Below are positions 1,935 to 5,143 of a stretch of DNA of 7,863 nt, one piece after another (position 1 is the stretch's first letter; every line of letters starts with the position of its first letter). The translations under genes were made by a program, and so were the position numbers. The notes beneath the pieces were generated by a model. That model was not told the origin of the DNA. It did not search any database and saw only the letters and a program-made list of their open reading frames with translations. The DNA comes from an uncultured Actinomycetes bacterium (GTDB lineage Bacteria; Actinomycetota; Thermoleophilia; Solirubrobacterales; 70-9). The stretch is taken from the NCBI GenBank assembly GCA_946479725.1, contig CAMLHB010000107.1, forward strand, positions 1 to 7,863, given 5' to 3'.

Positions 1935-2864
1935 ATGAAGCGGTCTTCCTCCATATGCCTCTTCCTGCTGGCGATGCTCGTCTCTGCCGGCTCTGCTCCC
2001 GCTGCGGAGGAAGCGCCCTTTCCCCCGGGAGGCTTCCGCCTTCCCACCAGCAACGGCTACTCGCTGCACGCGCTTTCCTTCGACGGCGACCCGCACGGGA
2101 AACCCGACGAGCTGATCCTCTTCGTCGGTCGCAAAGGCGGCGGGGCCACCTACTTCGTGCTCCATCACGTGACTATCACCGAAACGACGATCGCCGCCGA
2201 CCTCGGCCGCCTCGGTTCGATCGATCTCCACTTCGTCCCCAGCGGCGAGACGAAGAAGGAGCACCCGCGCTGCCAGCCGAAGCAATCGGTCGAATTCGAC
2301 TCGGGCTTCTACGAAGGGCGGGTCGACTTCGAAGGCGAGGAAGGCTTCACCGCCGCCCACGCGACGCGCGCGGCCGGAGAATTGCAGTTGGGCCTGAACC
2401 TGTTCTGTCCCGGTGGCCCAAAGGTAGACGGCATCGGTGGGAACGCTCCCGGCGCTCAACTGCACGGTTACCGCCGCTGGCCCGGCGGCAAGGTGGAGCT
2501 GCAGGCGAGCACGAACTCACCCACTCGTCCGGTGCATTTCAAGGCCTCGATCGAGGAACGCGGGGGAGATCTCCTCGTTATCCGCGAAGTCGCGGTAACC
2601 GGGGCACCCTCGGCCTTCCGGTTCGACGTTCCCGCGCAGACCGCGCGCCTGGCGCCACCGGCGCCGTTCCGAGGGGTGGGCCACTTCAAGAGGCGGGAAG
2701 AGGCGCTCGGGCGGCTGCGAGGCGGGCTGACCGTAGATTTCCCCGGCAACTCCCACGTTTCCTTGGCGGGCATCCAAGGGGGAATGGTGCGCTACGTGGC
2801 GAACCCGGGCCAGGTGTTTCGGCCGCTCTCGCGGCTGTCCCTCGAAAGGATGCTGGACGAATGA
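1935..2864 (+). CDS. Secreted protein of unknown function, paralogue 1 of a tandem pair
   Basis: A 309-residue protein that I do not recognise as a named family. It starts with a Sec-type signal peptide: basic KR, a hydrophobic core (about residues 7-17) and a likely cleavage after APA at 23. No lipobox is seen, so it should be released or wall-associated. The mature part is rich in Gly, Phe, Asp and Glu and has no other membrane segment, consistent with a beta-rich extracytoplasmic domain (inference). It has only two mature cysteines, Cys113 and Cys158, both matched in the next gene, so a disulfide is plausible. The most distinctive segment is SGFYEGRVDFEGEEGFT (residues 123-139). A second conserved block, APPAPFRGVGHFKRR with GGLTVDFPGN, lies at about 240-272. 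The start is the ATG at 1935, immediately before the signal peptide. Its stop overlaps the start of the downstream paralogue as ATGA, so the two are translationally coupled. Confidence 0.85.
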   Translation: MKRSSSICLFLLAMLVSAGSAPAAEEAPFPPGGFRLPTSNGYSLHALSFDGDPHGKPDELILFVGRKGGGATYFVLHHVTITETTIAADLGRLGSIDLHFVPSGETKKEHPRCQPKQSVEFDSGFYEGRVDFEGEEGFTAAHATRAAGELQLGLNLFCPGGPKVDGIGGNAPGAQLHGYRRWPGGKVELQASTNSPTRPVHFKASIEERGGDLLVIREVAVTGAPSAFRFDVPAQTARLAPPAPFRGVGHFKRREEALGRLRGGLTVDFPGNSHVSLAGIQGGMVRYVANPGQVFRPLSRLSLERMLDE

Positions 2865-3796
2865 AAACGAAGCTGATCCTCTGCATCTGTGCCGCGCTAC
2901 TGATCTCAGCGGCCCCCGCCCGAGCTTTCAGTCCCCTGCCCCCGCATCTCGCCGCTGCTGAGTTCCTCGGCTACGGCACCGGCTTCCAACTGCAGGGCAC
3001 GAACGGCTACAGGATCGGCGTCTACGGCTTTTCCGAACGCCGGGACGGGAAGGGGAAGATCTATGTCAGCGCCGGTCGCAGGGGTCGGTACGGGAGCGGC
3101 GCCTCCTATCTGGCTCCCGCGGTCGTCTCCGAAGGCTTCATCAGAGCTGACCTCAGCTCGCTCGGGAAGGTGGACCTGGCGCTCCATCCCTCGGGCATCG
3201 AAAAGAAGATCCACATCAAGTGCAGCAAGCACACCTATCCCTTCGAAACGGGTTACTTCGAAGGCGTCGTGGAATTCGAAGGCGAGGGGGGCTACACCAC
3301 CGTCACCGCGACCCAGATCCCATTCCAGCCGCCGATCACCTCCTTCTGCGGCGGCTTAAGCGGCAAAGGCGAATCGCGAGCCGCCGGGCTTCCGGGGGCG
3401 AGGCTCCAGGGTCTTTCCTTCGCACACGGTCGCCGCCTCACCTTCCAGGTCAACAAGAACCACCCGCGGCGGGGGCGGGTGCCCTTTAGCTTCGACCTCC
3501 GGGAGCGGCACGAAGGCATCCAGATCCACCGCTTCATCGAAGGCTTCGCGCCGTCGAGCAGCTTCTCCTTCGATCCCAACCTGAGCGAAGCCGAGCTGAA
3601 CCTCCCCGCGCCCTTCTCCGGCTCCGCCACCCTGCGCCGTCGGTCCAACGCCGTCACCCCGAAATGGAACGGCGACCTCACCGCCGACTTCGTCGGCCAC
3701 CCCGACTTCCGCCTCGCCGGCCCGGGCGTCTACGTCAGCCTCACCCACGCCTGCTTCTCCTACAGCGGCGAATCCTCGTTCGCAGAGACCTGCTGA
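2861..3796 (+). CDS. Secreted protein of unknown function, paralogue 2 of a tandem pair
   Basis: A 311-residue relative of the preceding gene. The ATG at 2861 overlaps the upstream TGA and is preceded by AAAGGA (2845-2850) 10 nt away. It opens directly into a signal peptide (basic MKTK, hydrophobic to about residue 19, probable cleavage after ARA at 22). The frame stays open far upstream, but that extension has no secretion signal and runs out of frame across the first paralogue, so it is not coding. Segments shared with the neighbour are GTNGYRIGVYGF (47-57), LGKVDLALHPSG (101-112), Cys121, TGYFEGVVEFEGEGGYT (130-146), Cys163 in SFCGG, LPAPFSGSATLRRR (248-261) and GDLTADFVGHPDFRLAGPG. Unlike its partner it has two more cysteines, Cys298 and the final residue Cys311, which may form a second disulfide. 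The role is unknown. The conserved pairing suggests the two proteins act at the same extracytoplasmic site, or that this is a recent duplication. Confidence 0.86.
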   Translation: MKTKLILCICAALLISAAPARAFSPLPPHLAAAEFLGYGTGFQLQGTNGYRIGVYGFSERRDGKGKIYVSAGRRGRYGSGASYLAPAVVSEGFIRADLSSLGKVDLALHPSGIEKKIHIKCSKHTYPFETGYFEGVVEFEGEGGYTTVTATQIPFQPPITSFCGGLSGKGESRAAGLPGARLQGLSFAHGRRLTFQVNKNHPRRGRVPFSFDLRERHEGIQIHRFIEGFAPSSSFSFDPNLSEAELNLPAPFSGSATLRRRSNAVTPKWNGDLTADFVGHPDFRLAGPGVYVSLTHACFSYSGESSFAETC

Positions 3797-3842: not shown

Positions 3843-4171
3843 GTGGCCTTCGACGAAGCCCTCGCCGACCGCATCCGCGACGCCCTCGCTTCTCGCGACG
3901 GGGTGAGCGAGCAGAAGATGTTCGGCGGCACCGCCTTCATGCTTGGCGGCAACATGGCGGTGGGCGTGATCGGCAGCGACTGATGGTCCGCCTCGACCCC
4001 GCCGATGCCGCCAAGGCGCTCGACGGGCCGCACACGCGCCCAATGGACCTCACCAGCAAACCGATGTAGTACATGGTCTACGTGGACGCCGAAGGAACGG
4101 CAAGCGACGAAGCCCTCGCGTCCTGGGTAGACGCCGGCGCCGACTTCGCCGCCTGCCTCCCGCCCAAGTAG
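3843..4171 (+). pseudogene. TfoX N-terminal-domain protein, disrupted by a frameshift and a nonsense codon
   Basis: From the GTG at 3843 the frame reads a TfoX_N start (MAFDEALADRIRDAL, then EQKMFGGTAFM and GNMAVGVIGSD) and hits TGA at 3981-3983 after 46 residues. The homology continues in the frame two bases on: from CTG at 3980, LMVRLDPADAAKAL, TRPMDLTSKPM, a TAG at 4067-4069, then YMVYVDAEGT, ALASWVDAGADF and CLPPK to a final TAG at 4169-4171. Restoring one C at 3979-3980 gives GSDLMVRLDP, as the family expects. The internal TAG sits where relatives have a Lys- or Arg-like residue after PM. Repaired, the product would be about 109 residues, the usual size for stand-alone TfoX_N proteins, whose function is poorly known; the name comes from the competence regulator TfoX/Sxy. 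Two independent lesions make real gene decay more likely than a sequencing slip. No intact second start would yield a whole domain. Confidence 0.85.
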
Positions 4172-4228
4172 CGCGAAAAAGCAGCAGGTAAGGGGGAGAG
4201 GTCATCGACCTGTCGCCTTTGTCTTCCT

Positions 4229-5143
4229 ATGGAGGACAAACTCGACACCCTCGATCTGCGCATCGACGAAGTCGCTTCTCGGCAGCACGGCGTGATCACG
4301 TTGCGCCAGCTTGAAGCGGTCGGCTTAGGCCGACGGGGAACATCGAAGCGTGCAGGTAGGGGGCGACTACATCGCGTCCACCAAGGCGTCTATGCGGTGG
4401 GGCACCGCGTTCTAGGTCATCGCGGGCGCTTCATGGCCGCCGTCCTTGCTTGCGGCGAGGGAGCGGTCGTCAGTCACGCCTCCGCCGCGGTTCTTTGGGA
4501 GCTTCTCTATCCCCTCGAAGGCCCCATTCACGTTTCGATCCCAAGCACCTCGGGCCGCAAGTCACGTCGCGGGATCCACCTCCACCGCTGTCCCTCCCTA
4601 ATCCCGCCGCCCCGAGAGCCGTCTCCCTCACTCTCCTCCTCGCCAATTAGAGGAGGGCGAGGGAGACGGCTCACCACCGCCACCCTCACCACCCACCGCC
4701 ACCGAATCCCCGTCACGACCGTCCCCAGGACCATCGAAGACCTTCGCGCCACGGCGCTCCTCCCACCGCACCTAACCCGCCGCGCCATGCGCCAAGCCGA
4801 GCTCAAGGGGTACCGCCTCGACCGTGTCGAGAGCGACCGCACCCGCAGCGACCTCGAGTCCCTCTTCCTCGCCACCGTCGACCCCTACCGCGACCGCATC
4901 CCACCCCCCGAGGTCAACGCCAGACTGGGCCACTATGAAGTCGACTTCCTTTGGCGCCAGCAGAAGCTCGTCGTCGAAGTGGATTCCTTCACCTACCACC
5001 GCGGCTCGGTCGCCTTCCACGATGACCACGAGCGCGATCTCGACCTCCAGAGCACGGGCTACGCCGTCCTCCGCTTCGACGACCAACAGCTCGAAGCCGA
5101 GCCCGAGCGCGTCGTCGCGTTGATCCGGGAGGCGCTGTCGTAG
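4229..5143 (+). CDS. AbiEi-like winged-helix and DUF559 (PD-(D/E)XK nuclease-fold) protein with an in-frame palindromic insert
   Basis: A 304-residue two-domain protein. Residues about 8-60 (RIDEVASRQHGVIT through GRLHRVHQGVYAVGH) match the winged-helix domain seen in AbiEi-type antitoxins and related actinobacterial proteins. Residues about 205-300 are a DUF559 domain related to very-short-patch-repair-like endonucleases. Candidate active-site residues of that PD-(D/E)XK fold are Glu210 (DLESLFL), Asp239 (YEVDFLW), and Glu250 with Asp252 (VVEVDSFTYH); the closing strand is GYAVLRFDD. Such proteins are abundant in actinobacterial genomes, are usually not paired with a toxin, and have no established role. 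No partner toxin gene is seen here. Residues 130-148 are encoded entirely by a 57-bp palindrome, giving a basic Ser/Pro/Arg/Gly linker between the domains. The ATG at 4229 fits the family N-terminus, but neither a ribosome site nor a TANNNT box precedes it at the usual distance. The stop overlaps the putative polA -10 hexamer. Confidence 0.87.
   Translation: MEDKLDTLDLRIDEVASRQHGVITLRQLEAVGLGRRGTSKRAGRGRLHRVHQGVYAVGHRVLGHRGRFMAAVLACGEGAVVSHASAAVLWELLYPLEGPIHVSIPSTSGRKSRRGIHLHRCPSLIPPPREPSPSLSSSPIRGGRGRRLTTATLTTHRHRIPVTTVPRTIEDLRATALLPPHLTRRAMRQAELKGYRLDRVESDRTRSDLESLFLATVDPYRDRIPPPEVNARLGHYEVDFLWRQQKLVVEVDSFTYHRGSVAFHDDHERDLDLQSTGYAVLRFDDQQLEAEPERVVALIREALS
4616..4672 (+). repeat. 57-bp near-perfect palindrome inside the DUF559 gene (REP/palindromic-element-like)
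   Basis: The arms are 4616-4638 and 4650-4672, 23 nt each, pairing at 21 of 23 positions. The outer 14 bp (GAGCCGTCTCCCTC against GAGGGAGACGGCTC) are perfect. The loop, 4639-4649, is comparatively AT-rich (CGCCAATTA within it). The two imperfect positions are A4630/C4658 and T4632/G4656; in the mRNA the second can form a G-U pair. The element begins on a codon boundary (Glu130), spans exactly 19 codons and contains no stop. An alternative inner register (4635-4641 with 4650-4656) gives a tighter 8-nt loop. No second copy is present in the window and no target duplication is obvious. Confidence 0.85.

Follow-up and report, generated by a model that had tools for sequence, protein, structure and literature searches.

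The window, by which we mean the whole 7,863 nt stretch of DNA analysed here, carries a 57-nt palindrome inside the open frame of a gene for a two-domain protein. This raises the questions of how such a palindrome came to lie within a gene, how long it has been there and what may have brought it. A preliminary description made from the sequence alone had read it as a dispersed insert of the REP or Rickettsia palindromic type lying between two protein domains, and had proposed a search for a RAYT/REP-associated transposase. We followed the palindrome through the relatives of its gene and of its host, using genomes which include MAGs.

The palindrome and its gene

The features of the window used below are as follows.
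4211..4247, + strand: weaker palindrome spanning the start codon (sequence, pair list)
4229..5143, + strand: AbiEi_4 + DUF559 gene encoding 304 aa, carrier of the palindrome (ORF list, Pfam domains, fold matches)
4259..4399, + strand: AbiEi_4 winged-helix domain, residues 11-57 (Pfam)
4616..4672, + strand: in-frame palindrome of 57 nt, residues 130-148, EPSPSLSSSPIRGGRGRRL (ORF, arm pairing, RNA fold)
4616..4638, + strand: 5' arm, C-rich (inverted-repeat scan)
4639..4649, + strand: loop (inverted-repeat scan, RNA fold)
4650..4672, + strand: 3' arm, G-rich (inverted-repeat scan)
4922..5137, + strand: DUF559 nuclease domain, residues 232-303 (Pfam, Foldseek, invariant residues)

The inverted-repeat scan confirmed the two 23-nt arms with 21 matches that had been described (21/23 paired, 91% complementary, 11 nt spacer), and placed them first among the 8 pairs listed. 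The RNA fold of 4616-4672 reached −44.5 kcal/mol, compared to a shuffle mean of −20.4 (z = −7.9), and none of 200 shuffles equalled it. From the ORF at 4229-5143 it is also clear that the palindrome is exactly 19 codons long, starts on a codon boundary at 4616 and contains no stop, as had been stated. A perfect pair in place of the arm mismatch at columns 15/43 of alignment A1, one of two such mismatches, would create an in-frame TGA. Searching the window against Rfam gave no match.

The palindrome was said to sit where the winged-helix domain passes directly into the nuclease fold. It does lie between the Pfam domains AbiEi_4 and DUF559, but not at their exact junction, since in an AlphaFold model of the 304-aa protein (mean pLDDT 85, input alignment A3 of 50 proteins) the insert forms a loop between strands 116-120 and 154-157, after which one more strand and two helices precede the nuclease part. 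The model has pLDDT < 50 at residues 131-150. The best PDB fold match of the modelled protein, using Foldseek, was AbiEi 6y8q; the catalytic domain of the homing endonuclease I-Bth0305I (3r3p) was matched with a probability of 1.00 and a TM by target of 0.75, and Vsr (1cw0) was a weak match (E = 0.09). Five residues of the DUF559 domain (D239, E250, D252, H257 and D266) are invariant in the 50 aligned proteins of A3, as is E210 just N-terminal to the domain, and we take these acidic and histidine residues to be catalytic. In Pfam's own wording DUF559 is a large family of unknown function. No relative was found when viral contigs were searched with the DUF559 protein.

Upstream of the gene, at 3843-4171, are the interrupted remains (by eye) of what is presumably a TfoX-like gene, and 1935-2864 and 2861-3796 are neighbouring paralogues which look secreted by eye and to which no function was assigned.

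Age of the insert and changes in its arms

We scored 7995 candidates in a protein search, 5116 of which had E ≤ 0.001, and examined the best 120. Alignment of the DUF559 relatives gave the pattern of presence and absence that the preliminary description had looked to. The insert peptide was present in all of these best 120 homologues (62-74% identity; 18 or more of the 19 insert columns filled), and absent from 12 sister genes of 48-56% identity (L070-L078, L080, L081 and L083) as well as from the more distant L004, L005, L006 and L048 (40-44% identity). One of the sisters, L070, has four additional residues near the insert site. A simple S/P...G/R motif fits 115 of the best 120, and among the five proteins off this motif a matched double change was seen only in P0120 (by eye). 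Within the searched genomes the insert clade occurs in 2 of 201 and in the same two of 232.

Because all 120 of these homologues carry the peptide, the insert is ancestral to a large clade and is not a recent insertion; on this point the earlier reading needs correcting. A dispersed class of coding palindromes, absent from sister genes and with similar elements in other genes of relatives, is supported. One old insertion is the simplest reading of the distribution. The 57-nt element would then be an old in-frame copy of a palindromic repeat class dispersed in the lineage, which entered the loop of an AbiEi-DUF559 gene once and has been inherited ever since. It probably persists as a disordered peptide which the protein tolerates, and matched changes in both arms would maintain its hairpin.

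The insert DNA was compared for the window (W), L001, L002 and L003, which have three distinct sequences of 57 nt each. Three arm pairs differ on both sides between W and L002 and are still paired, and likewise three between L001 and L002, with no compensatory pairs between W and L001. In alignment A1, which holds the three distinct rows, 3 of the 23 pairs have a two-sided change; this count was reached in 19 of 500 shuffles and was 0 in every slid register. Two of the three changed pairs involve a swap between G and R in the 3' arm (W vs L002) opposite silent changes in the 5' arm. The stem has thus been preserved, and because the 3'-arm G/R swaps match silent 5'-arm changes it seems to be the stem rather than the peptide that is followed.

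These swaps in step with silent changes are not what would be expected if the element were a chance or locally duplicated linker, palindromic by accident and kept for its peptide or for an mRNA hairpin. The peptide in 120/120 of the best homologues is consistent with such a linker, but the sister genes lack the insert and the same class occurs in other genes, and we consider this account highly improbable. A palindrome arising by chance is ruled out by the fold statistics, the loci of the same class elsewhere and the compensatory pairs, and a one-off local duplication by the sister genes without the insert taken with the peptide in the best 120 homologues.

Genome G002 has another DUF559 gene of the insert clade (L003 10025-10908), which is split into two frames near the 3' edge of the palindrome and is probably decaying.

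Palindromes in other genes

To follow the class of the window insert we used a covariance model, R1, trained on 11 C-rich palindromes (alignment A2). Three were the DUF559 gene inserts from W, L001 and L002; seven came from DUF559 3' ends in G001 and G002, and the last from a G002 membrane-protein gene. The model was run on seven genomes, with 150 first-look candidates scored per genome and a cut-off of E ≤ 0.01, and matched 9 loci in G001, 8 in G002 and none among the 150 candidates from each of G006, G007, G021, G036 and G066. These 17 loci consist of 10 training sequences, the near copy in L003 and 6 new loci. At the new loci no long frame spanning the palindrome matches the DUF559 profile. 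Taken with one training member, the new loci give three pairs in which G001 and G002 share the site of the palindrome, in frame. A Pfam scan of one gene per pair identified an ABC transporter and an iron-ADH-like protein and left the third, a large protein which by eye is a membrane protein, without a match. At the sixth new locus (G002 C4:95534) the frame that was tried has no Pfam match. The three orthologous inserts contain 4, 2 and 4 compensatory pairs (P = 0.0012, 0.033 and 0.0007 for changes coinciding on both sides, by a simple position shuffle).

No single clear cognate gene was found for the C-rich class of the window insert. The nearest link of this class is to DUF559 genes of G001 and G002 at their 3' ends, and in 5 of the 7 training palindromes from such ends the stop codon falls within the middle part of the palindrome. 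The tetranucleotide GTAG, a tag of REPs, is found near the middle, not the end, of 5 of the 11 C-rich palindromes in A2, the window copy being without it; this may be chance.

We also looked for solo copies of other palindrome families. In G002 (797 kb) 60 hairpins with a score of at least 12 were compared with 86 DUF559-associated palindromes. Many of the 60 were unmatched, and one group was strongly matched, including solo copies of several families. The copy numbers of the families are modest. The clearest example, family A, is a 45-nt palindrome found at 9 places in G002, 8 in G001, 1 in G033 and 0 in the 22 others of the 25 genomes, where its reversed pattern, used as a control, was found at no place. 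Seventeen of the 18 copies were examined: 4 lie at DUF559 genes, and for the other 13 there is no DUF559 gene within 1.5 kb. The eight copies in G001 form two subfamilies of four, each represented at the 5' end of a separate DUF559 gene, and the sole copy in G033 is the start of a DUF559 gene. Raw hairpin density does not separate G002 from DUF559-poor genomes, because hairpins of the same score number 1 in 60 kb of G036 and 10 in 109 kb of G066 vs 60 in 797 kb; it is recurrence and the match to a cognate gene that distinguish G002.

In relatives, similar elements were found both inside and outside coding frames, the two kinds of position that the preliminary description had proposed to search. 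Solo palindromes occur in open frames matching TrmH, MR/MLE (muconate-cycloisomerase-like), PhzF, glycerate kinase, a DAO/GCV_T protein, RecJ, a FAD-oxidase/ferredoxin protein and a phosphodiesterase, and judging from these open frames the palindromes in frame are likely to be coding inserts. TrmH matches were found in 40 of 41 genomes, with the palindrome segment in G002 only and missing from 24/24 aligned relatives. Two of these, L232 and L223, have extra residues of a different sequence, about 4 and one respectively. For MR/MLE, matched in 32 of 41 genomes, the segment is present in G002 and G001 and missing from 23/24 aligned relatives, L240 having two extra residues. When aligned with PDB entries, the palindrome peptide falls in a 10-residue gap for PhzF and a net gap for MR/MLE; the result for TrmH was ambiguous and is settled by the alignment with relatives. 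Some copies of family A are not coding: around L262 there is no open frame as long as 130 codons, and the frames at L272 and L278 look marginal. The palindromes lie inside domains, at gene ends and in linkers, and this variety does not favour the suggestion that the mRNA hairpin slows ribosomes between two folding domains.

The copies at L262, L272 and L278 (~1501-1545) share the adjoining sequence TGAAGATTCG.TTTTCAC, as if they belonged to a longer repeat; the shared flank of L262 is on the opposite side and less exact, and all three are apparently outside long genes. A 678-codon open frame in G002 (C28:69644-71677, L179), a membrane protein by eye, contains four palindromes of four families.

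Concerted change was observed at one locus pair. In G001 as in G002, 10-12.5 kb separate the MR/MLE gene from the DUF559 gene of family A. Between these genomes the neighbouring frames are ~87-96% identical (best frame), MR/MLE 78% and the DUF559 protein 61%. Within one genome the DUF559 and MR/MLE palindromes are identical at 43/45 and 37/45 positions, compared to 33/45 and 31/45 for the orthologous palindrome sites of G001 vs G002. This reflects either conversion to the palindrome of the resident gene or independent arrival at one site in both genomes, and both readings point to a process which recognises palindrome sequences. The MR/MLE palindrome has only 1 compensatory pair (P = 0.34).

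DUF559 genes and their palindromes

Hairpins were scanned around 116 DUF559 gene pieces, taken from G001's relatives and from the seed loci (Solirubrobacterales, Thermoleophilia or Actinobacteria), and the 106 complete genes among them were kept for the hairpin counts. Hairpins with a score of at least 12 were found at the 5' end of 47 of the 106 genes vs 6 of 297 control ORFs (P = 4e−25), where the controls were picked by length only and the start was anchored on the first profile-matched residue for DUF559 genes vs the first start codon for controls; 59 of the 106 have no 5' hairpin at this threshold. At the 3' end the numbers were 19/106 and 9/297 (P = 2e−6), and there was no excess of gene-internal hairpins (6/106 vs 18/297). 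Away from DUF559 genes, a score of 16 was reached by 15 hairpins in 684,695 bases. In 5 of the 17 genes or pieces with palindromes at both ends (score 11) the arms match between the ends, vs 9 of 1430 cross pairs; one of the 17 is a piece of the split L003, the inner palindrome of which was counted as a 3' end. Palindrome similarity also tracks protein identity (54 genes, Mantel r = 0.26, 0 of 2000 permutations), the set being the 58 genes with a 5' palindrome less one with a palindrome > 100 nt and others which are short pieces. The palindromes thus have a likely partner in the DUF559 gene family, because many of its genes start or end with one, related genes have related ones and further copies are found elsewhere in the same genomes, several of them in frame within ordinary genes.

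The window gene itself has a weaker palindrome at its start, 4211-4247, with the ATG at 4229 in the middle. Of its 17 pairs 14 are Watson-Crick, one is T-G and two are mismatches. It fell under the threshold of the automatic hairpin scan. It resembles the TGTCGACTTT..AAAGTCGACA family, found at related DUF559 5' ends and as solo copies, and is outside the strict pattern of that family, which occurs at 3 places in G002, 2 in G004, 1 in G011 and 0 in 22 others; 3 of these 6 places are at DUF559 genes and 3 elsewhere.

This 5' position, with the ATG often mid-palindrome (by eye), would also be expected if the palindromes at DUF559 starts were operators through which the AbiEi-like winged helix regulates its own gene, the dispersed copies being extra sites or decoys spread by other means. 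The AbiEi fold of the structural model and the family-specific nature of the palindromes agree with such a role. However, arms of 14-20 pairs are long for operators, all of those known to us being shorter, and neither the copies within coding frames of ordinary genes nor the matching palindromes at both ends of some genes are easily accommodated, so that we regard operators as an unlikely explanation. It is somewhat less plausible still that the palindromes are passive repeats, for which DUF559 genes, being dispensable, are frequent landing sites and the arms of which are kept matched by replication template switching. Template switching does give compensatory changes without selection, but it leaves unexplained the related palindromes at related DUF559 genes, the copies matching the resident DUF559 gene of each genome and the rarity of 5' hairpins in control ORFs (6/297).

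The association appears to be confined to this lineage. We sampled 296 genomes across the phylum; 53 had a DUF559 match and the 30 best loci, one per genome, were scanned. Of the 22 loci from genomes outside the earlier sets 1 had a 5' and 2 had a 3' hairpin; the 8 loci from genomes already used (G001 included) gave 3 and 1. Because hairpins were few at the distant loci, the palindrome link belongs to this lineage and not to DUF559 at large, and a general DUF559-palindrome link is unsupported beyond the relatives by these 30 best loci.

The transposase for which the preliminary description had proposed a search did not materialise: none of 16 DUF559-rich genomes had PF01797, the Y1 transposase domain of RAYTs, with a positive E. 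coli control, and 2 of 3 DUF559-poor genomes had matches barely above the cut-off. The candidate partner is instead the DUF559 family. As in REP/RAYT systems, palindrome and gene co-vary (here in the Mantel test and at the one concerted locus pair) and solo copies of palindromes from the gene ends are dispersed elsewhere in the genome. The flanked arrangement of RAYT genes may be shared by some DUF559 genes, given the 17 genes or pieces with hairpins at both ends. In contrast to REP/RAYT systems, the DUF559-rich genomes searched gave no Y1 (HUH) domain, the nuclease has a homing/Vsr fold and an AbiEi-like part, the 17 of 18 family A copies taken with their flanks have no common GTAG or CGTC tag, and copies are fewer. 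A coding position alone is not new, because REPs within genes have been reported too (PMC2817692, PMC3733652), as have CGTC repeats with no known transposase, with Rickettsia among the hosts (PMC3733652).

In-frame inserts in conserved genes are described for Rickettsia palindromic elements and Wolbachia coding palindromes (PMC2229807). The inserts in TrmH, MR/MLE and DUF559 are similarly in frame in conserved genes and absent from orthologues, but are set apart by their size (~35-66 nt vs 105-146 bp), are in a different phylum and belong to several families paired with nuclease genes. Where it discusses the movement of Rickettsia-type coding palindromes, a 2007 review left it to future work (PMC2229807). 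The window protein shares the nuclease fold and the invariant acidic and His residues of the Vsr-like homing endonuclease I-Bth0305I, but is fused to an AbiEi-like part, has a palindrome as its partner and was seen with no intron or intein. It likewise resembles the AbiEi antitoxins of type IV toxin-antitoxin systems in its N-terminal AbiEi_4 and its best PDB match, 6y8q, and differs from them in being fused to a nuclease. Among the titles and abstract openings listed from open-licence PMC, none connects DUF559 with palindromes.

Taken with moderate confidence, the best reading is a REP/RAYT-like partnership with a Vsr/homing-type nuclease, which yields Rickettsia-like coding palindromes. The sequences themselves show insertion, dispersal, an association of palindromes with cognate genes and preservation of the stem. 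We infer that the nuclease drives the spread: the AbiEi-like part would recognise the cognate palindrome, the Vsr/homing-type nuclease would cut it or its cruciform, and repair would then copy palindromes from one site to another, in a role comparable to that of RAYT transposases for REPs. More tentatively, and without yet thinking it probable, we propose that AbiEi-DUF559 proteins are an undescribed palindrome-propagating class, unrelated to RAYTs, which spreads and homogenises cognate palindromes, often in frame, and so adds peptides to the proteins of its lineage; the window would then hold an enzyme gene that itself acquired such a peptide and retained it as its clade radiated. If the nuclease does spread palindromes, this would be a second, independent counterpart of REP/RAYT, and DUF559 would gain a function. 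The question of movement becomes testable in a lineage such as this, where several palindrome families each have a fast-changing nuclease gene as partner.

A separate, larger hairpin of 65-76 nt recurs away from DUF559 genes at the following places.
L071 518-583 and 1046-1111: larger hairpin
L076 492-567: larger hairpin
L077 515-584: larger hairpin
L086 426-490: larger hairpin
L093 1466-1533: larger hairpin
L117 11167-11233: larger hairpin
L125 7584-7649: larger hairpin
G002 C7:40380-40444: larger hairpin
G002 C28:45468-45533: larger hairpin
Several of these have a GGACAACAGCGGGGAGG-like middle, and they are possibly another repeat or an RNA element.
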